A DNA stretch of 20,015 nt from IMG/VR virus record IMGVR_UViG_3300020204_000474, positions 1 to 20,015 of that record. One strand, written 5' to 3'. This DNA is from a virus. Both the position numbers and the translations under genes were made by a program. Positions 11,375 to 20,015 of the stretch are shown here, piece after piece (the stretch's first letter is position 1; every line of letters begins with the position of its first letter). The notes below the pieces were generated by a model. That model did not search any database and had not been told where the DNA came from. It saw only the letters and a list, made by a program, of their open reading frames with translations.

Positions 11375-11405
11375 AAGGCTAGCCTACGGGCTGGCCTTTT
11401 TCTTT
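11375..11405 (+). terminator. Rho-independent terminator
   Basis: Stem GGCTAGCC (11377-11384) pairs with GGCTGGCC (11389-11396) over a TACG tetraloop, with one G-T wobble; two A-T pairs extend the base, and TTTTTCTTT follows. The UNCG-type loop closed by C-G is an especially stable hairpin. It ends the unit holding the fibre, hydrolase and two small genes. Confidence 0.9.
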
Positions 11406-11408
11406 GCC

Positions 11409-11660
11409 ATGGCTTTCACGGATTCTTATTCCTTTTCCCATCGTTTCTCTTGCGGCGAAACAACAAGCGATACTGCTGGCTATCAAGAAATTATTCATCA
11501 ATGCCAAGAAGTAAATGCCTTTGGCCTGACGCGCCAGTTCTACCAATTCATGCTGGGCTGTGGTTATGCTCCTCAAAGCGTCGTAGCTGCATTTGACGCG
11601 CTAGCAATGGAATATGGCGAAGCTCATTGCGGCTATGATATAAAAAAGGCGACTAAATAA
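11409..11660 (+). CDS. Hypothetical protein (83 aa)
   Basis: Open frame from ATG at 11409, only 3 bases after the terminator's T-rich tract, to TAA at 11658-11660. The product has four Cys residues and a helical middle (QEIIHQCQEVNAFGLTRQFY, then SVVAAFDALAMEYGEA). It has no signal peptide and no membrane segment. One base separates it from the next ATG. No ribosome binding site is visible, and any promoter would have to lie within or before the terminator. It may therefore depend on read-through or use a leaderless transcript. Function not recognised. Confidence 0.6.
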   Translation: MAFTDSYSFSHRFSCGETTSDTAGYQEIIHQCQEVNAFGLTRQFYQFMLGCGYAPQSVVAAFDALAMEYGEAHCGYDIKKATK

Positions 11661-13901: not shown

Positions 13902-15010
13902 TTGCTTACTAACACGGCCCATCCGCCAGTGCCATCCACTCTCCAACGGGGCAGCCAATTCTGTTTCCCATAGGCAATATTTTGCCCACCGTTGGCGCCG
14001 ATATAACCTCCTTTGATAATATTGGCCTGACCGAAGGGATCATTGTGAATATAAGCTTGAGCATTGAAACCAACGACAACGCTCCAATGTCCGCCTCCCG
14101 TGGGAGCATTAAACGGCCCGTGGTGCAGCCATCCCACTGCCACTGGACGGCCAGCCCTGATTTCATTTTGCAGCAATGTTTCGTTGCCATCAACAACAAA
14201 AGAAGCTTTTAGGCCAAGAGACTGGAGGGCCTTGACTTGTGCATTGGCATTGGTGGTGTCACCAAAGCGAGCGCGAATAGTATTATATTCATCATCAGTT
14301 TTTACCTTGCCATAATATGCTGCAATCATTGCGCAAGAGCTGCTAAAGCATTCTCGCTGCCCCTGTCCAGAAACGTTATCCCTTTGGCTGAAATATGGTA
14401 TATTTAACGGATTGGAGATGAGCGGAGGTTTAGCAGCAGGAGCCGCTCGATAAAGCTCCGCAAACTCCTCTAGTTCGGCATTGCTCAGCTTTTCTTGAAG
14501 CCAATTCCATGCTGCAAGCTGATGGCTTTCTTCTTTGTAAAATTTAGCTGCGTTGGCAAGGCGAATAGGGGAATTGCTCATGACTGATGACGGTGCATAT
14601 TGATTCATTAAGCGAATGAGTTTATCAGCATAGTTAGGGTCAGTAGCATAGCCTTGATTTTGCAGCATCTTTGCCGCAGCGTTTCTATTGGGGGCATGAT
14701 TCACGCCCTTGTACGACCGCCAATCAAGATACCAGCGAGATACAAGGTATTCAATGCAGGCGGCAAGGCTCGGGAAATCAATAAAACCAGCCCTAATTGT
14801 AACCCATTGTCCATCGTAAAACTCTTTAGTGGTGCTCGTTGTACTGGCGCCGCCAGAGCTTTTTAGGCCAAAGTAATTATGTCGAGCAGATGTGTGCTTG
14901 CCAAAGCCACTTTCACATGCCCATTGTGCTGCTACAAGCTCAGGAAATTTAGCCCCCACGCGCCGTGCATGGAGGCTTACGCCTTCCCAGGAATTGGCGA
15001 CTTCGCTCAC
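13898..15010 (-). CDS. Bifunctional endolysin: GH73 glucosaminidase + C39-like peptidase (370 aa)
   Basis: Residues 1-140 match FlgJ-type GH73 N-acetylglucosaminidases: AAQWACESGFGKH with the catalytic Glu expected at E33, HNYFGLKS, then GYATDPNYADKL near 120-131. Residues 145-195 are a helical linker. Residues 203-370 match the papain-like C39 family: YFSQRDN, ECFSSSCAM with the nucleophile expected at C221, GGHWSVVVGFN with H308, and HNDPFG with D324. The enzyme should therefore cut both the glycan chain and a peptide bond of host peptidoglycan. No signal peptide is seen, so export depends on a holin. Translation begins at GTG (15010), overlapping the stop of the 50-aa membrane gene as GTGA. 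A C39-like cleavage of a peptide stem or bridge is inferred from family only. Confidence 0.85.
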   Translation of the reverse strand: MSEVANSWEGVSLHARRVGAKFPELVAAQWACESGFGKHTSARHNYFGLKSSGGASTTSTTKEFYDGQWVTIRAGFIDFPSLAACIEYLVSRWYLDWRSYKGVNHAPNRNAAAKMLQNQGYATDPNYADKLIRLMNQYAPSSVMSNSPIRLANAAKFYKEESHQLAAWNWLQEKLSNAELEEFAELYRAAPAAKPPLISNPLNIPYFSQRDNVSGQGQRECFSSSCAMIAAYYGKVKTDDEYNTIRARFGDTTNANAQVKALQSLGLKASFVVDGNETLLQNEIRAGRPVAVGWLHHGPFNAPTGGGHWSVVVGFNAQAYIHNDPFGQANIIKGGYIGANGGQNIAYGKQNWLPRWRVDGTGGWAVLVSK

Positions 15011-15159
15011 TTGCTAGAACGGAAGATGGTCTTCAGGCCCTCCATGACGAGCTGAAGAATGTTGTTACTTTTCCAGGGGGAGTGGTCAAGAATCTGGTCA
15101 GCAGCAGCAACGAGAATGCCACCAATAACAAACCATTCGATGGGTTCCATGGGAGTCAT
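15007..15159 (-). CDS. Putative holin-like small membrane protein (50 aa)
   Basis: Reading leftward, ATG at 15159 opens a 50-codon frame ending in TGA at 15007-15009, which overlaps the endolysin GTG start. Residues 8-23 (EWFVIGGILVAAADQI) form one membrane helix, and the C-terminal half is amphipathic and basic (KSNNILQLVMEGLKTIFRSSK minus its ends). A second ATG at 15150 could yield a form three residues shorter, reminiscent of dual-start holins. Its place immediately before the endolysin, with translational coupling, makes a holin or holin accessory role likely. Small proteins with an SxxNxxxQLV tail occur near lysis genes of other cyanophages, as far as I recall. Confidence 0.65.
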   Translation of the reverse strand: MTPMEPIEWFVIGGILVAAADQILDHSPWKSNNILQLVMEGLKTIFRSSK

Positions 15160-15174
15160 GCGTCTAATAAAAGC

Positions 15175-15384
15175 CTAGCGTTTAATTTCCAAAGAGCGCA
15201 CTCGCTCCTCCATCATTTTCATGTTTTCCGTAAGTACGTCTAATTTTTCCGTGATGGTTTCAATTTGAGCTGCTATTCTCACTTGTTGATGACCGATGCC
15301 CATCATCATTCCACCAGTGGCAAGAAGCATGCCTGCGGTGAGAACTACTGCGAAGTCCGCGAGCTTTGCTTGCCAGGCATTCAT
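15175..15384 (-). CDS. Membrane-anchored coiled-coil protein, lysis-associated (69 aa)
   Basis: One N-terminal membrane helix (about residues 10-32, AVVLTAGMLLATGGMMMGIG) followed by a heptad-patterned helix (38-67) rich in Glu, Lys, Leu and Met. This layout is that of small holins of the one-helix type, or of membrane-anchored spacer proteins. It is first in the leftward lysis cassette, 15 bases ahead of the 50-aa membrane gene. Either of the two small proteins could be the holin, with the other acting as antiholin or spanin-like partner; sequence alone does not decide. Confidence 0.65.
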   Translation of the reverse strand: MNAWQAKLADFAVVLTAGMLLATGGMMMGIGHQQVRIAAQIETITEKLDVLTENMKMMEERVRSLEIKR

Positions 15385-15480
15385 TGAAATAAAAACTTTC
15401 TTTTGTTCATTCTATACATTCCACCATGGTTTAATTTTGGCTTTAAGCTTGAAAGAAGCCAACCAAATATCATTATGGGG
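15385..15480. promoter_or_regulatory. AT-rich divergent region, candidate promoters for lysis cassette and HNH gene
   Basis: This is the only spot where leftward and rightward genes diverge with a real gap. It is AT-rich. On the minus strand, TATAGA (15416-15411) is a plausible -10 box for the lysis cassette, and on the plus strand TATACA (15413-15418) for the HNH gene. Neither has a convincing -35 box, so specific promoters are not claimed. Confidence 0.25.
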
Positions 15481-15954
15481 ATGAGCAATGGACCTGAAGA
15501 ACTCCTCCATTCGCTTTCTGAACTACGGCCTGGTGATGCTAAAAGACGCTATAGAAAAAGTATTTTTGAAGACTATCAATTACGAGGGCCATTTGGTCAC
15601 TGTGCTTGTGCCTATTGTGGCAAATGGAATGAAAAGCTAACGATTGATCACATTATCCCTAAAAGCAAAGGCGGCCCGCACTTTGCAAAATGGAACAATG
15701 CGCCTTCCTGTCTTTCTTGCAATGCCTCCAAGGGCAGTCTGCGTTTGTTTGAATGGTGGCGCCCTCAAGAATTTTGGACAACAAGGCGCGAAGAACTGCT
15801 TTTAAGCTGGATTCATCACCATAGTTTCGTGAGCGCTCATACAAATCTTTCCGATTGGGAAGCATGGTGCGAAGCAACTCAGCGCGTATTACCATTGCAC
15901 GAAAAAGGGGCCGCTGTCGGCCCCTTTCCTTTAAGTGAGTGGTGTGCTGCTTAG
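15481..15954 (+). CDS. HNH endonuclease (157 aa)
   Basis: Zinc-ribbon HNH nuclease. From ATG at 15481: CAYC (43-46) and CLSC (77-80) supply the metal-binding cysteines. IDHIIPKSKGG (55-65) holds the D56-H57 pair, W71-N72-N73 and N81 follow, then K84. The C-terminal third contains FEWWRPQEFW and aromatic helices. An in-frame ATG six bases upstream (15475) and one at 15403 are possible starts; none has a clear ribosome binding site. The gene stands alone, opposite in strand to both flanking units, which fits a mobile free-standing HNH gene, though a packaging or DNA-degradation role is also possible. Its last 17 codons include a transcription terminator hairpin, and its stop overlaps that of the convergent neighbour. 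Confidence 0.85.
   Translation: MSNGPEELLHSLSELRPGDAKRRYRKSIFEDYQLRGPFGHCACAYCGKWNEKLTIDHIIPKSKGGPHFAKWNNAPSCLSCNASKGSLRLFEWWRPQEFWTTRREELLLSWIHHHSFVSAHTNLSDWEAWCEATQRVLPLHEKGAAVGPFPLSEWCAA
15901..15930 (-). terminator. Terminator of the leftward nucleotide-metabolism block, inside the HNH gene end
   Basis: AAAGGGGCCG (15904-15913) and CGGCCCCTTT (15918-15927) make a perfect 10-bp stem with a 4-base loop. Leftward, the stem is followed by TTC, so the U-tract is CCCCTTTTTC. Rightward it is followed by CCTTTAAG, giving a poorer T-tract. It lies 24 bases beyond the stop of the leftward DUF3310 gene and inside the HNH reading frame. Confidence 0.85.
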
Positions 15955-16340
15955 TGGTCGCAAATGGGAGCGAACATGGCCTCTGAAGGTCCTTGACGCA
16001 CACTAGGCATAGGACAGAAGCCATCAGGACAGCCACTTGCTTTTAAATAATCGTCGGGATCGTAATTAACGCCCAACACTTCTTTAGTGGTTTCTTCAAT
16101 TGCTCTTCCCATTGCCTCCTCCATTTCGCAAATGAGAATCAAGCGCTTAAGATACCACTTGGCTTTTTTAAGGTCTTCAGAGCCATTCTTTTGAGAATAG
16201 CGCCAAACATATTTTTGAACATTACCTTTTAAGAAGCCTTTGAACTCTGCTGTGCTCATGGACGCTTCAATGGCTTCAATGCATTGAATGTTTCCATCAG
16301 TGTCGGCATAGTGTGCGGGACTGTTAACGGGATCGTGCAT
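15951..16340 (-). CDS. DUF3310 protein, putative nucleotide kinase-related (129 aa)
   Basis: Residues 1-75 carry the DUF3310 signature: VNSPAHYAD at the start, QCIEAIEASMSTAEFKGFL, GNVQKYVWRYSQKNG, EDLKKAKWYLKRLI. This domain is found in many phages and in T7 gp1.7, which has been described as a nucleotide kinase, so a role in nucleotide metabolism is plausible here beside ThyX. The last 50 residues are not conserved in my memory of the family and contain two Cys. ATG lies two bases after the thyX stop; the stop (15951-15953) overlaps the HNH stop by three of four bases. Last gene of the leftward unit, closed by the hairpin at 15904-15927. Confidence 0.85.
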   Translation of the reverse strand: MHDPVNSPAHYADTDGNIQCIEAIEASMSTAEFKGFLKGNVQKYVWRYSQKNGSEDLKKAKWYLKRLILICEMEEAMGRAIEETTKEVLGVNYDPDDYLKASGCPDGFCPMPSVRQGPSEAMFAPICDH

Positions 16341-16342
16341 GA

Positions 16343-17041
16343 TCAGAATTGATAGTTGTTTTCAGCAAAGGCATCAAAAGCTTCTGGCGCCACTGGTCTG
16401 CCTAGTTCAAGCAGCGCTTTAGCATAGGCCACAATTTCTCCCTGGGCTCCGTGACCGATGCGCAAGGAAATGAAATGAAACAGAGCCTGCAAGGAACAAG
16501 TCCAGACAAAGCTTGTATAGAGTGCAGAAGGCAGGATAGCCCTAGCCTGCTCTTTGCTTACGCCCGTCAGCAGAAGTCCCTCGTAAGCCTGCTTGCAAGC
16601 TTCTATTGCCTGTGAATACTGCATTAGGGCTAGCGCTTGTTCACGAAGCTGAAGAGGTCCTGCAGACGCTTGACGGTTGTCTTCGCTTTGCTGCAAGAAT
16701 TCCATGGGAATGTAAAATTCTGCTTCTTCAGCCGAGCAATAACGAAAGCTTTTTTCGTTCCAGCCCAACTGATCGTCAACAAAAGTGGAGGCCACTGTGT
16801 GTTTCCACCATTGCCTTGCCACAAACAACGGGGCCTTTATAGCCCATTTAAATACCACACCCCTAAAAGGAGAAGTGTGATGATGCTTTGCAAGGTAGCG
16901 AAGAAGTTTGCCGTCGCGTTCTGTCCATTCTGGGCTTTCTGCAGCAAAAGACTGACGAGCATCATTGACGACAGAAAGGCTGCTCCCCATGGAATCAAGG
17001 AGTCGTAAAGAGCTTTTGCCATCGTTAAGTGGATCAAGCAT
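16343..17041 (-). CDS. thyX: Flavin-dependent thymidylate synthase ThyX (232 aa)
   Basis: ThyX makes dTMP from dUMP with methylene-tetrahydrofolate, FAD and NADPH. Landmarks: LLDSMGSSLSVVNDARQSF (14-32), LAKHHHTSPF (50-59), FVARQWWKH (73-81), GWNEKSFRY (93-101), ARAILPSALYTSF (167-179), FISLRIGHGAQGEI (190-203). The signature usually written RHRxxSxNExSxRY is altered: the RHR is KHT (80-82) and eight extra residues sit between the first Ser and the NE. The NExSxRY half and the later Arg residues are intact. The start is ATG at 17041, one base after the preceding stop, with GAGGAGG nine bases upstream; the longer frame to 17164 would overlap the ribbon-helix-helix gene. Identity is confident, the effect of the variant motif is unknown. 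Confidence 0.9.
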   Translation of the reverse strand: MLDPLNDGKSSLRLLDSMGSSLSVVNDARQSFAAESPEWTERDGKLLRYLAKHHHTSPFRGVVFKWAIKAPLFVARQWWKHTVASTFVDDQLGWNEKSFRYCSAEEAEFYIPMEFLQQSEDNRQASAGPLQLREQALALMQYSQAIEACKQAYEGLLLTGVSKEQARAILPSALYTSFVWTCSLQALFHFISLRIGHGAQGEIVAYAKALLELGRPVAPEAFDAFAENNYQF

Positions 17042-17042
17042 T

Positions 17043-17222
17043 TTATTTCGCCTCCTCAAACGACTCAAGAGAGCCGAGTTGATTATCCTCCAAGTCGTAC
17101 AGAAATTTACGAATTGCTGCTCGGCAGAGACTGGAAGGAGTTGCATTAAGTTTTTCAGCAGCAAGAAAAACTCGCTGGCGCTCTGAGGAGGGAAGCCGAA
17201 AAGAAAGGCGAGGGTTTACCAT
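17043..17222 (-). CDS. Ribbon-helix-helix DNA-binding protein (59 aa)
   Basis: Leftward frame from ATG at 17222 to TAA at 17043-17045. The product has the RHH pattern: a short N-terminal strand RLSFRLP (5-11), helix SERQRVFLAAEKLN (13-26), a turn ATPSS, then helix LCRAAIRKFLYDLED (32-46), and an acidic tail. RHH proteins bind DNA as dimers through the strand and usually repress their own operon. The stop is one base from the thyX ATG, and its last codons carry the thyX ribosome binding site, so the two are made together. A regulator of this nucleotide block or of host genes is the natural guess; no operator was identified. Confidence 0.72.
   Translation of the reverse strand: MVNPRLSFRLPSSERQRVFLAAEKLNATPSSLCRAAIRKFLYDLEDNQLGSLESFEEAK
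17051..17057 (-). promoter_or_regulatory. Strong ribosome binding site for thyX
   Basis: On the minus strand GAGGAGG lies nine bases before the ATG at 17041, within the last codons of the preceding small gene. It is one of the few full Shine-Dalgarno sequences in the window and decides the thyX start. Confidence 0.85.
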
Positions 17223-17247
17223 GACAAATCAGATGCTTTTGTGGTGG

Positions 17248-17601
17248 TCATTGAGGAATGCAGGCGATGGGGCGGATGCGTTGAATTGCCACTGTACTAG
17301 AGACGAGAACATCGTTTTGCTCCCATTGAACCATTGCAGCCTTTCTTCCATTGCTTCCCTTTGTAAAGCCTTGGAAGGTGCCATGAATGGACGTTGGCAC
17401 CAGACCAGCCCCTGTGAAGGCGACCAGTACCACTCTTTCTCCTGGCGTCCAATTATGGTCCGTTGGCGAACGCCTCAGTTTATACCTTCGGGAAGCCGGA
17501 CGCAAGATTTCGGCTTTTTCCCCATCGTCCACTGCCCGTACAAACTGCTTGTTTCCATTGTTCGTCTGTAGCCTAGTAACAAAAGAACGATTGGTTGCCA
17601 T
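17248..17601 (-). CDS. Hypothetical protein with SH3-like C-terminal half (117 aa)
   Basis: ATG at 17601 lies in CCATGG, which also supplies the ATG of the opposite gene. Residues 1-45 are polar and basic. Residues 50-112 look like a small beta barrel: GERVVLVAFTGAG, IHGTFQGFTKGSNGRKAAMV, WEQNDVLVSSTVAIQRIRPI, where the ending resembles KOW/SH3-like domains. TGA at 17248-17250 is 25 bases before the ribbon-helix-helix gene. Function not recognised; a nucleic-acid or protein-binding role is possible. That it is real rests on its protein-like pattern and its fit in the leftward operon. Confidence 0.6.
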   Translation of the reverse strand: MATNRSFVTRLQTNNGNKQFVRAVDDGEKAEILRPASRRYKLRRSPTDHNWTPGERVVLVAFTGAGLVPTSIHGTFQGFTKGSNGRKAAMVQWEQNDVLVSSTVAIQRIRPIACIPQ

Positions 17602-17962
17602 GGAGTATTGTCTGCCGGTACAGTTTGACTACAATGGACAAAAATATTTGGCCACTATGGGTCCGTTCGAGCATTCCACTGAGCGTCAGTTTGCCCTAAC
17701 TGTTAATCGCAGGGCCATTGACGAATGCACCAGTGTAGAACAGCTTAAGCCTGTTGCCAAAAATCTTTTGGAAGGTTGGTCATCGCTGCAAACTGCTTTT
17801 CAAAGCTTGATGCTGGAGAACATTCAACTTCGTCAAGCTCTTGCAGTGCGAGATAGCTCTCTTGAGGCTGCTGATGAAATGCTCACCCAAGCCTCTGTCG
17901 TGATTGACAAATATGAGAAGCAATTAAAGAATACCAATAAACTTCCTTGGCCATTTGGCTAG
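17600..17962 (+). CDS. Hypothetical protein on the opposite strand of the operon (120 aa)
   Basis: ATG at 17600-17602 (in CCATGG) is preferred; the open frame to 17387 would overlap the leftward SH3-like gene completely. The product has a beta-rich start (LPVQFDYNGQKYLATMGPF) and a long helical remainder (SVEQLKPVAKNLLEGW, ENIQLRQALAVRDSSLEAAD, VIDKYEKQL) likely to form a coiled coil, ending in PWPFG. It is the only rightward gene between 15955 and the window end. It overlaps the leftward Vsr-like gene by 80 bases at its 3' end. The leftward strand has no gene of its own between 17602 and 17882, which supports this one. No promoter is visible because its upstream region is coding on the other strand. 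Confidence 0.6.
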   Translation: MEYCLPVQFDYNGQKYLATMGPFEHSTERQFALTVNRRAIDECTSVEQLKPVAKNLLEGWSSLQTAFQSLMLENIQLRQALAVRDSSLEAADEMLTQASVVIDKYEKQLKNTNKLPWPFG

Positions 17963-18260
17963 TCAAGAGGAAGATCGTCCACCCGCTCGTATATGCGAGA
18001 TTATATTTCCGACAATCGCGCTCATAGCCGCTGCCAGTGACGTGGCGACCACGATTGTAAACACCACCCTGGATTTCGATGCCAGTGCAACTGTCGGGAT
18101 GAGCAAAGTCAAGGCGATACCTTCTTGAGCGTTTATTTTTTGCATGGCGCTCTTGATAATCTTCTTCCCAAGCCGCAATGTCAGAAAATTCTCGTTCAAG
18201 AATTAACCGAGGATGATGAGCTTGCCACGAACTAAGAAATTGATCTTCAAGAGCACTCAA
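17883..18260 (-). CDS. Vsr-like PD-(D/E)XK endonuclease (125 aa)
   Basis: Small nuclease of the very-short-patch-repair type fold. Residues 47-55 (RYRLDFAHP) give the first acidic residue D51; 61-66 (IEIQGG) give E62; GRHVTGSGYERDCRKYN (71-87) and GWTIFLLT (93-100) complete the family pattern. Such proteins typically show E-x-E/D/Q rather than E-x-K at the second site, with Lys further on. Roles known for relatives include mismatch nicking and junction or end processing; which applies here is unknown. Start is TTG at 18260, three bases after the dcd stop; no ATG is available before the conserved core. The last 26 codons overlap the rightward gene. Confidence 0.72.
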   Translation of the reverse strand: MSALEDQFLSSWQAHHPRLILEREFSDIAAWEEDYQERHAKNKRSRRYRLDFAHPDSCTGIEIQGGVYNRGRHVTGSGYERDCRKYNLAYTSGWTIFLLTSQMAKEVYWYSLIASHICQSRQRLG

Positions 18261-18263
18261 TGC

Positions 18264-18854
18264 TTAGACAGCGGCTAGTTGTACCCTAGCGCCTTGGTTT
18301 TGATAGGCGCCAGTGTAAGCTTGTCCCACTTCCTCAATGCCAAATAGCACCAACTGAGCGATGCCTTCGTTGGCATAGAGGCGAATGGGGAATGCCGTGG
18401 GGTTGACAAAGCACATGGTCAGGTAGCCACTCCAACCAGGTTCAACGGGAAGAATGTTGGCAATGAGTCCGCAGCGCCCATAAGTGCTTTTGCCTTCACA
18501 AAGAGCAAACACGTCGTTCGGCATGGAAATTAGCTCAAGGCTGGTACCAAGGCCGTGGCTATGGGGAGGCAGCAGAAAATAGCATGAACCGTCTTCCTGC
18601 TCAACCAGTTCCGTTTCAGTGGGCTCAGTGTCAAACCGCTTGGCATCTAGCTCGTACGGCGCACTGCCCCAGTTATCTGTAGTGAAAACTAGGAACTCAA
18701 CGGAAGACAGGCGAATGTCATAGCCTGCTTGCGAGAGCCCGTAGGAAATTGCTTTTGTGCCATTGTCAAGCTCTCTGCATTTTTCGCCAACGTAAGGCAA
18801 AAAGATGTCATTCTCTGCCAGTTTGGCAATTTGCTTGTCATTAAGAAGGGTCAT
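18264..18854 (-). CDS. dcd: dCTP deaminase homologue with altered catalytic residue (196 aa)
   Basis: Dcd enzymes turn dCTP into dUTP, feeding thymidylate synthesis. Landmarks: LLNDKQIAKL (3-12), SQAGYDIRLS (41-50), LPPHSHGLGTSLE (95-107), CEGKSTYGRCGL (119-130), EPGWSGYLTMCFVN (138-151), YANEGIAQLVLF (160-171), YTGAYQNQGAR (180-190). Against E. coli Dcd as I remember it, PGWSG aligns without gaps through to the N, and the catalytic Glu138 corresponds to Cys148 here; Ser111 and Arg115 correspond to S123 and R127. Deaminase activity is therefore doubtful; it may bind nucleotides only. ATG at 18854 overlaps the preceding stop as ATGA, so the longer frame to 18947 is rejected. The trimeric dUTPase-like fold should be kept. 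Confidence 0.85.
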   Translation of the reverse strand: MTLLNDKQIAKLAENDIFLPYVGEKCRELDNGTKAISYGLSQAGYDIRLSSVEFLVFTTDNWGSAPYELDAKRFDTEPTETELVEQEDGSCYFLLPPHSHGLGTSLELISMPNDVFALCEGKSTYGRCGLIANILPVEPGWSGYLTMCFVNPTAFPIRLYANEGIAQLVLFGIEEVGQAYTGAYQNQGARVQLAAV

Positions 18855-19045
18855 GACGATGGGCGATTCATAAAGGCAATGGCAATCCACGAAAGGTAGA
18901 CAATGGGCCAGAAAGGCAAAGACGGCCAAATGGCCGTCCATGCCCAACCAGCCCCAAGAGCTACAAGAAAAGCAAGGCCAAATCCAATGAAGATGCCCAG
19001 CAGTTCCACGAGTGGATCTTTCTTTTCAAGCCTTGGGGAGATCAT
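18851..19045 (-). CDS. Small two-helix membrane protein (64 aa)
   Basis: Short basic/acidic N-terminus (residues 1-11), then two membrane helices at about 13-33 (ELLGIFIGFGLAFLVALGAG) and 38-59 (IWPSLPFWPIVYLSWIAIAF), with a polar tail. Its TGA overlaps the ATG of the dcd homologue (ATGA), and its own ATG is three bases after the preceding stop, so it sits firmly in the operon. Function not recognised; in this block, rather than in the lysis cassette, an early role such as superinfection exclusion is conceivable but unproven. Confidence 0.65.
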   Translation of the reverse strand: MISPRLEKKDPLVELLGIFIGFGLAFLVALGAGWAWTAIWPSLPFWPIVYLSWIAIAFMNRPSS

Positions 19046-19048
19046 GGT

Positions 19049-19303
19049 TCAGAACAGATCAGAAGAGCTTTCAGGGCTTTCGTTCTGCCAGACGCTGGCA
19101 TAGCCCTTGGGACCATCCTTGTCGCCTTTCACTTTGACAGAGCCCGTGAAACCAGGGGCACGGTCAGAGGTGCGCTTTTCGTTAGGCCATACAGCCATGT
19201 CAAGCGAATAATTACCTCGCTCGTTGGGACCAGCTTTTTTAAGAGCATTAAGCAAATCGCCAGTCAGATCGAGAGCGGCGGTGATTGGGGGCCGATTGGC
19301 CAT
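19049..19303 (-). CDS. Conserved-looking hypothetical protein (84 aa)
   Basis: Soluble, polar protein. Residues 1-28 form a probable helix (LDLTGDLLNALKKAG). The middle reads like small beta strands: NYSLDMAVWPNEK, APGFTGSVKVKG and YASVWQNE. The end is acidic and Ser-rich. The W-x-N-x-K...F-T-G-x-V pattern recalls short cyanophage proteins in replication regions, but I cannot name the family. The start is clear: AGGAG lies seven bases before the ATG. Confidence 0.68.
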   Translation of the reverse strand: MANRPPITAALDLTGDLLNALKKAGPNERGNYSLDMAVWPNEKRTSDRAPGFTGSVKVKGDKDGPKGYASVWQNESPESSSDLF

Positions 19304-19310
19304 GGTGTTT

Positions 19311-19315
19311 CTCCT
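19311..19315 (-). promoter_or_regulatory. Strong ribosome binding site for the 84-aa gene
   Basis: Minus-strand AGGAG, seven bases before ATG at 19303. The 49-base gap to the upstream nuclease stop holds little else, apart from a weak GCCC/GGGC hairpin around 19331-19345. Confidence 0.75.
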
Positions 19316-19352
19316 GGGGAGTATTGGAGCCCCTGTTCAGGGCATGCTTATC

Positions 19353-20015
19353 TTACCCCCTATCCGTGGTGAGCGCAAACGCCTTGCCGCCAGGATAGAA
19401 CTGACTGAAGTATCTCCTCACAGTGTCCTGCATGACGGCTTGTTGCTGCACCAGCTCAAAGCCATCCATCTGCAGTACTTGCAGCTCAGCCTCGCGCCCT
19501 GGCTCTTCAGGATCGTACACGCTGATCACGCAGAAGGCTTGGTCGATGTCCACTTCGTACAGTTGCTCGGCGGCCATGGAGTAGGCGCCAAGTTGTTTTT
19601 TGTAGTCAGCGAGTTGATAATCGGGCTTCACTTTGTAACTAGTTTTCCAATCCATGAGCGCAATAGAACCGTCAGCCATCAGCGCCAGTTGGTCAAGTGT
19701 GCCCGAATAGCCAATTTTTTTTCCATCGTCCCACCATGCCACTGCGCTCTCAGCGAGGATGGGCTTCTCGATCAGCTCTAGGAAGGGTTCAATGGCAGTG
19801 AAATAAGGGCACCATTCTTCACGGTGATCAAGATGCCCTTCAATGTCCTCCCCATTGAATAAATCTTCAATGACTCCATGCATCCAAGTGCCCCTGTCTG
19901 CAGCAAGCCTGGTACGCCTGTTTGCCTCTTCATCGCCCACGCGCTTTCGCCAGTTGATGAGCGCCATGATCTTTGCCACTGGTGCCATTGACGAAAGCAC
20001 CGTGGTTACAGAAGG
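19353..20015 (-). CDS. RecB/Cas4-type PD-(D/E)XK exonuclease, 5' end outside window
   Basis: The frame stays open to the window edge, so the N-terminus is missing; a GTG at 20000 is internal, since the codons before it encode PSVTT, part of the family's usual PSVTTIL opening. Counting from that GTG: RGTWMHG (37-42) with H41, AES with E84, GTLDQLA with D103, ALMDWKTS with D117 and K119, and QLGAYSMA with Q136 and Y140. This is the H...E...D...D-x-K...Q-x-x-x-Y order of RecB/AddB/Cas4-type nucleases. Phage copies serve in recombination, end resection or host DNA breakdown. It is the most upstream visible gene of the leftward block. No adjacent Cas genes or CRISPR array are seen, so it should not be called Cas4 in the CRISPR sense. 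Confidence 0.85.
   Translation of the reverse strand, partial: PSVTTVLSSMAPVAKIMALINWRKRVGDEEANRRTRLAADRGTWMHGVIEDLFNGEDIEGHLDHREEWCPYFTAIEPFLELIEKPILAESAVAWWDDGKKIGYSGTLDQLALMADGSIALMDWKTSYKVKPDYQLADYKKQLGAYSMAAEQLYEVDIDQAFCVISVYDPEEPGREAELQVLQMDGFELVQQQAVMQDTVRRYFSQFYPGGKAFALTTDRG

Follow-up and report, generated by a model that had tools for sequence, protein, structure and literature searches.

In a clade of cyanophages resembling S-CBS4, genes G and V are an old pair arranged tail to tail, and at the sequence level the first ~40 codons of a third gene, H, lie over the putative control DNA of G, with no non-coding base between the two genes if H starts at codon 1. The explanation that best covers these observations, to which we give a probability of about one half, is an old G/V pair with H coded over the control region of G and with opposed transcription of G and of the H/thyX side. 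The window, meaning the whole stretch of DNA analyzed, is a virus record of 20,015 bases, and a search of the phage collection with the final 4 kb gave Synechococcus phage S-CBS4 as the best match (68.7% identity, 21% of the query). Within it, G is a rightward gene among leftward neighbors, with the following features.

17600-17962, + strand: G, 120 aa, from the ATG at 17600 to the stop at 17962
17248-17601, - strand: H, 117 aa, from the ATG at 17601 to the stop at 17248
17883-18260, - strand: V, converging on G; TTG start at 18260; phrog_503; labeled Vsr-like in the first-pass annotation
17598-17603: CCATGG with both start codons; 17600-17601 are common to both ATGs (CATG, 2-base overlap)
17883-17962: tail-to-tail overlap of G and V, 80 bases; codon positions 1, 2 and 3 of G lie opposite positions 1, 3 and 2 of V
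17569-17574, + strand: TAGCCT box within H codons 10-11, 31 bases ahead of the start of G; may act on G as a -10-like element or an operator
17488-17513, - strand: conserved element CCGAAA-N9-CGGCTTCCCGA, within H codons 30-38
17530-17532, - strand: H codon 24 (GTG), in-frame start codon, alternative or second start of H
17043-17222, - strand: small RHH-like gene, 3' of H; a neighbor not constant in relatives
16343-17041, - strand: thyX, neighbor; start chosen by eye, at the ATG before LDPLNDG

The first-pass annotation had described G at these coordinates, the CCATGG shared by the ATGs of G and H, the 2-base start overlap and the 80-base overlap of G with the leftward gene V at 17883-17962. 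All of these are exact, with the reservation for the start overlap that H may begin at codon 1 or at codon 24.

The tail-to-tail pair of G and V

Homologues were collected by searching viral_contigs with G, H, V and the G of S-CBS4 (one search used the best 80 of 117 V matches), and these matches together with S-CBS4 and the window's own stretch made up 147 loci. Eighty-four distinct loci were compared, with the window added and identical G merged, and later 105, which drew on the best 80 of 302 matches. G and V overlap by 62-115 bases in all 103 measurable loci among the 105 distinct G loci (the overlap could not be measured in L048 and L185), and its phase is 2 mod 3 in 102 of the 103, the exception being L212 with 115 bases. 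The convergent overlap is therefore conserved between relatives, with each frame ending inside the other. Over the last ~20 codons of G, synonymous divergence (pS, 15 loci) is 0.11-0.38, down from about 0.5-0.8, as expected where third codon bases of G double as second codon bases of V. By coordinates, the C-terminal WP of G (conserved at 96% and 95%) is paired with MA of V (85% and 94%) on the opposite strand. All three genes are under purifying selection, with median dN/dS values of 0.168 for G, 0.383 for H and 0.179 for V, and with values below 1 in every one of the 201, 511 and 637 pairs used, which were restricted to 0.05<pS<0.55.

The protein encoded by V matched phrog_503, a family of unknown function, in 28 of 28 V proteins searched with hmmscan. 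The Vsr-like label was not borne out by profiles, since neither Vsr nor DUF559 was found among these proteins by hmmscan; at E <=0.01 the sole Pfam match was Deltameth_res, in 3 of the 28, and NCBIfam at 0.1 returned just two unrelated names with one member each. The label DUF559 does appear on one distant tblastn match of V. A homologue of V with 56% identity to that of the window was seen in S-CBS4 (L002 4997-5398; HQ698895.1 / NC_016766.1, about 53990-54391, - strand), in an unannotated gap between gp072 and dcd, where it overlaps gp072 by 101 bases. An S-CBS4-like G/V locus was also seen in a contig filed as a Rhodobiaceae MAG (L267), perhaps a phage contig placed there by binning.

The frame of G is open for 71 codons further upstream (ORF 17387-17962). 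The family alignment begins at 17600, and a stop lies at most 8 codons upstream of G in 21 of 37 loci that lack H. Coding potential was assessed with a six-frame substitution score on DNA alignments, for which the positive controls gave 0.74 and 1.16 and the spacer of H-less loci gave <=0.12 in all frames. A start at the invariant M20 was considered and is unlikely, since G codons 2-19 score as coding (1.02, with <=0.23 in the other five frames). The predicted structure of G has a beta-hairpin (strands 2-11 and 14-24) followed by helices 27-41 and 46-112 (mean pLDDT 82). This fold had no match with E <=0.001 and the window's G had no match to PHROGs at 0.01; two PHROGs were each matched by one of 40 G members at 0.006-0.009. 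None of the libraries searched placed G convincingly in a family.

Conserved DNA upstream of G

Two conserved features would make up a control region upstream of G: a TAGCCT-like box 25-37 bp before it and an element of the form CCGAAA...CGG..T..CCGA located ~55-115 bp before it in most relatives. The conservation of both is seen in the sequences, and a role in control is proposed. All 20 H-bearing representatives and 19 of the 26 H-less ones had the box, against zero or one for each of four shifted windows used as controls. The strict form, TAG[CG]CT, was found in 15 of 20 and 14 of 26, respectively, the pattern having been defined on the same sequences in which it was counted. In the window, the loose form also precedes three other listed starts, at -29 from 11409, at -18 from 15159 and at -28 from the start of V (18260). 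At the first of these, TAGCCT at 11380-11385 lies 29 bases before the ATG at 11409, within what by eye appears to be a hairpin followed by T's.

The box is not a canonical sigma-70 -10 hexamer and no -35 was found with it, and a consensus scan for hexamers spaced by 16-18 bp gave no site at 17569-17574. Consensus promoters in 15000-20015 numbered 7 where 4.4 were expected, and terminators 11 where 6.2 were expected. A leftward promoter match inside G (17760-17732) was set aside as no more than chance allows.

A version of the element had 46 exact matches in viral_contigs. Sixteen of these were accompanied by G, all at -56 to -68, and 30 had no recognized G; among the latter, two were accompanied by thyX, one of them at a contig end, and the other 28, with none of G, V and thyX, are due to chance or unexplained. 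With two mismatches allowed, one match was found in the window and one in each of three of five records of 69-74 kb, and none in S-CBS4 and G002 among those five. The backward control pattern had one match in G002 and two in G004 in the same five records, and the first version of the element pattern had none in any of them. No Rfam match was found up to E 0.1 in 15300-20015, and an RNA hairpin at the element (AGCCG/CGGCT) was rejected since by eye its partner base is not kept.

In most relatives lacking H, the counterpart of CCGAAA-N9-CGGCTTCCCGA in the spacer before G is a direct repeat of TTTCGG with copies ~22 bp apart. Of the 36 H-less loci whose upstream DNA was long enough, 24 carried this repeat, as did three H-bearing loci; it always lay upstream of G, and no other TTTCGG pair of that kind occurred on either strand of the 84 loci scanned. 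By eye, the adjoining leftward ATG stands in differing reading frames relative to the repeat, which suggests that it is conserved as DNA and not as protein. A leftward 16-codon ORF, MGKKPKSCVRLPEGIN, lies out of frame within H (17525-17475, - strand) and has look-alikes, judged by eye, in several H-bearing relatives. It may encode a leader peptide or may be a by-product of the conserved element.

A regulatory role for this DNA is to be weighed against plain genome compaction, in which the overlaps would be inherited because breaking them would damage two proteins, and would have no regulatory role. The drop in pS at the overlapped end of G is what dual coding alone would produce. Furthermore, the phase of the G/V overlap, if it corresponds to (123:132), is the commonest convergent phase for overlaps of at least 5 bases, making up 49% in 58 prokaryotes according to Table 3 of the survey (PMC2174442). 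Compaction, however, offers no explanation for a box and an element that are conserved in loci with and without H, and we consider it an unlikely account, one that nonetheless deserves some weight.

Start and possible gain, loss or exchange of H

The exact 2-base overlap of G and H was found in 55 of 63 H-bearing loci, including S-CBS4; a few of these loci have another in-frame start on offer. The starts abut in four of the 63 and differ in another four, namely L259, which overlaps by 14 bases, and L036, L110 and L267, which have a later candidate start for H. The base before the start of G is C in 59 of the 63 H-bearing loci compared with 15 of 42 H-less loci, and a C in this position gives CATG and thus an ATG on both strands.

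A competing possibility is that H is translated mainly from codon 24 (GTG, 17532). The start codons would then be without overlap and the box of G would be intergenic, so that the overlap would be an accident of an open frame and the 67 bases between an ordinary spacer with the promoter of G. In line with this, an in-frame GTG (58) or ATG (1) occurs within H codons 19-27 in 59 of 59 long-H loci, counting the start codon nearest to codon 24, and alignment column 24 holds a start codon in 46 of 47 (44 GTG, 2 ATG, 1 GCC). In addition, the short-H loci L036 and L110 have candidate starts 42-70 bases from G, the structural model of H has low confidence at its N-terminus up to ~45, and the codon-periodicity check proposed in the first-pass annotation was weak for H codons 2-40. 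GTG is also fixed at H codon 57 (47 of 47), however, which means that a fixed GTG alone does not prove a start. By eye, no well-spaced Shine-Dalgarno sequence precedes the GTG, and none was seen before codon 1 either.

Several observations point the other way. H codons 2-23 score as coding in the frame of H (0.53, next frame 0.32), which was the best frame in 979 of 1000 resamplings of the sequences, and codons 24-45 scored 0.46 with 0.12 for the next frame; by the substitution score the N-termini of both divergent genes are coding. The residue pattern SF-V-RL---D-RK-FV of H is recognizable from the window to S-CBS4. All 17 long-H representatives have the box at distances from G that agree in phase (-37, -31, -28, -25), as expected if the intervening DNA is read as H, whereas the 19 H-less representatives with a box occupy all three phases (7, 7 and 5). 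The many -31 distances are of common ancestry, so the phase rests on a few length changes; it was used as evidence in place of the in-frame lengths of H codons 2-23, which by their construction are divisible by 3. The box is spelled by H codons 10-11, two of the most constant codons between groups (identical-codon fractions 1.0 and 0.9); codons 24, 33, 57, 62, 98, 102 and 103 also reach 1.0, and the constraint on codons 11-40 did not differ significantly from that on codons 41-95 (p=0.12). With the box inside the early codons of long H, H seems to be coded over the control DNA of G.

Coding score, box phase and shared residue pattern favor a start of H at codon 1, and translation mainly from codon 24, the chief doubt about the start overlap, appears rather unlikely to us. 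Both starts may be in use. One elaboration, which we regard as quite doubtful, is a two-way switch without intergenic DNA, in which ~110 bp would hold the N-terminal code of H, the promoter of G and a G-specific operator. H products would begin at codons 1 and 24, only the long one would need reading through the promoter of G, and the choice of strand would set the form. The likeliest reading of the sequence is that G and H diverge from one region which serves both control and coding, the exact start of H being the weakest point.

H is the variable part of the locus. Of the 105 distinct loci, 63 have H; among the H-less ones, L142 extends just 53 bases upstream of G, too short to judge, and the other 41 have at least 400 bases there. 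H-bearing and H-less loci alternate on a thyX tree and imply at least 7 changes, on a quick tree of 82 rows with 34 open forks and no known direction, in which thyX may itself have been exchanged. Where H is missing, a spacer or a different small gene separates G from thyX, and H is followed directly by thyX in some loci and by other small genes in others. The RHH-thyX part named in the first-pass annotation is seen in the window, where an RHH-like gene adjoins thyX; RHH was detected in only 9 of the 148 sequences first searched. It appears from the sequences that H comes and goes, or is exchanged.

The proposal of a late insertion of G into a leftward operon, which draws on G being the rightward gene among leftward neighbors in the window, is very improbable. 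G was present in each of 233 fetched loci with V (a count of loci, in part several per contig, that rests partly on the best 80 of 117 V matches), and it overlaps V in every distinct locus that could be measured (103), S-CBS4 with its 47% identical G among them. The gene-order comparison in relatives thus found a constant core of G and V and a variable part, H; with G accompanying V throughout and H changing on the thyX tree, a late insertion of G is not supported.

The structural model of H has ~45 low-confidence N-terminal residues followed by a small barrel (mean pLDDT 69.6), and its best Foldseek matches were Tudor/SH3-like barrels (SHH1 SAWADEE, SETDB1, ERCC6-L2 Tudor; probability up to 0.97). 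These fold matches are consistent but weak (best E-value 0.034; TM-score on H <=0.39 among the 50 matches listed), and no sequence match was found to solved structures at E below 0.19 or to PHROGs at 0.01. A Tudor/SH3-like barrel is thus weakly predicted for H.

H has a much lower pS than thyX, G and dcd: in one bin, for example, it is 0.29 where theirs is 0.56-0.58, and in the most divergent bin 0.53 where theirs is 0.70-0.75. Constraint on synonymous sites along the whole of H was considered as a cause; V is lowered too, and exchange explains the low pS better. The last ~45 bases of H are near-identical between groups with widely differing H and not in the nearer K group, which makes exchange the better explanation of the low divergence. 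A run of 29 bases near the 3' end of H (17269-17297) was identical in 42 of the 147 loci (several per contig), some with distant H, and is a possible exchange boundary.

By dN/dS and coding scores, G and H are both real genes: the dN/dS comparison proposed in the first-pass annotation found both divergent frames conserved, and of the two outcomes it had named as contrary, a frame not conserved and a start elsewhere, the former was not seen and the latter is unlikely for G and possible, at codon 24, for H. That one of the two frames is a spurious ORF has a negligible probability, even with long antisense ORFs occurring here (such as the one over H at + 17221-17571, rejected because stops interrupt it in relatives), as dN/dS is below 1 for G and H in all pairs used, the coding scores agree, and no broken G or H frame was seen among the homologues with the full region.

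Possible opposed transcription and known overlaps

In the favored explanation, H occupies the putative control region in many lineages and is read leftward from the very bases on which G starts. Leftward transcripts that reach H and thyX from the direction of dcd and V, or that arise at a promoter within G, would be antisense to G, and firing of the promoter of G would send polymerase against the leftward traffic. Such opposition suggests that G and the H/thyX side tend to alternate, being expressed in turn or at different times and not independently. Since the layout is real and conserved, the mutual interference suggested in the first-pass annotation may operate, and antisense interference between G and its neighbors is plausible from the arrangement of the genes.

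The closest known counterpart is the gp071/gp072 pair of S-CBS4, located between thyX and dcd. There gp071 is a homologue of H with 34% identity and gp072 one of G with 47%, and their start codons likewise overlap by 2 bases. It differs in that thyX directly follows H, with no RHH gene annotated between, and in that V is unannotated, which keeps the G/V overlap from appearing in that record. No paper on the gene pair was found among those listed, judged by title and start of abstract. In a survey of viral overlaps, antisense overlaps make up 6.6% of those counted (PMC8903798); that survey rests on annotated ORFs, unlike the G/V comparison made here.

The locus adds two protein families for which the libraries searched gave no convincing match, and V in S-CBS4 is a gene missed in a cultivated phage. 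For overlaps at start codons, the nearest frame of reference is a survey of 58 prokaryotic species by Lillo and Krakauer. In it, 331 divergent overlaps were counted against 1890 convergent and 12737 codirectional ones, and the authors attribute the rarity of divergent overlaps to the start signals that each gene requires in front of it (PMC2174442). The pair of G and H resembles these cases in that opposite genes overlap at their 5' ends. The survey is a census of gene pairs, whereas here one 2-base overlap was traced through tens of relatives, with a promoter-like box of one gene lying inside the other. Because the same overlap occurs in tens of relatives beside others that lack H, the locus allows one to ask how a coding frame grows over an existing control region.
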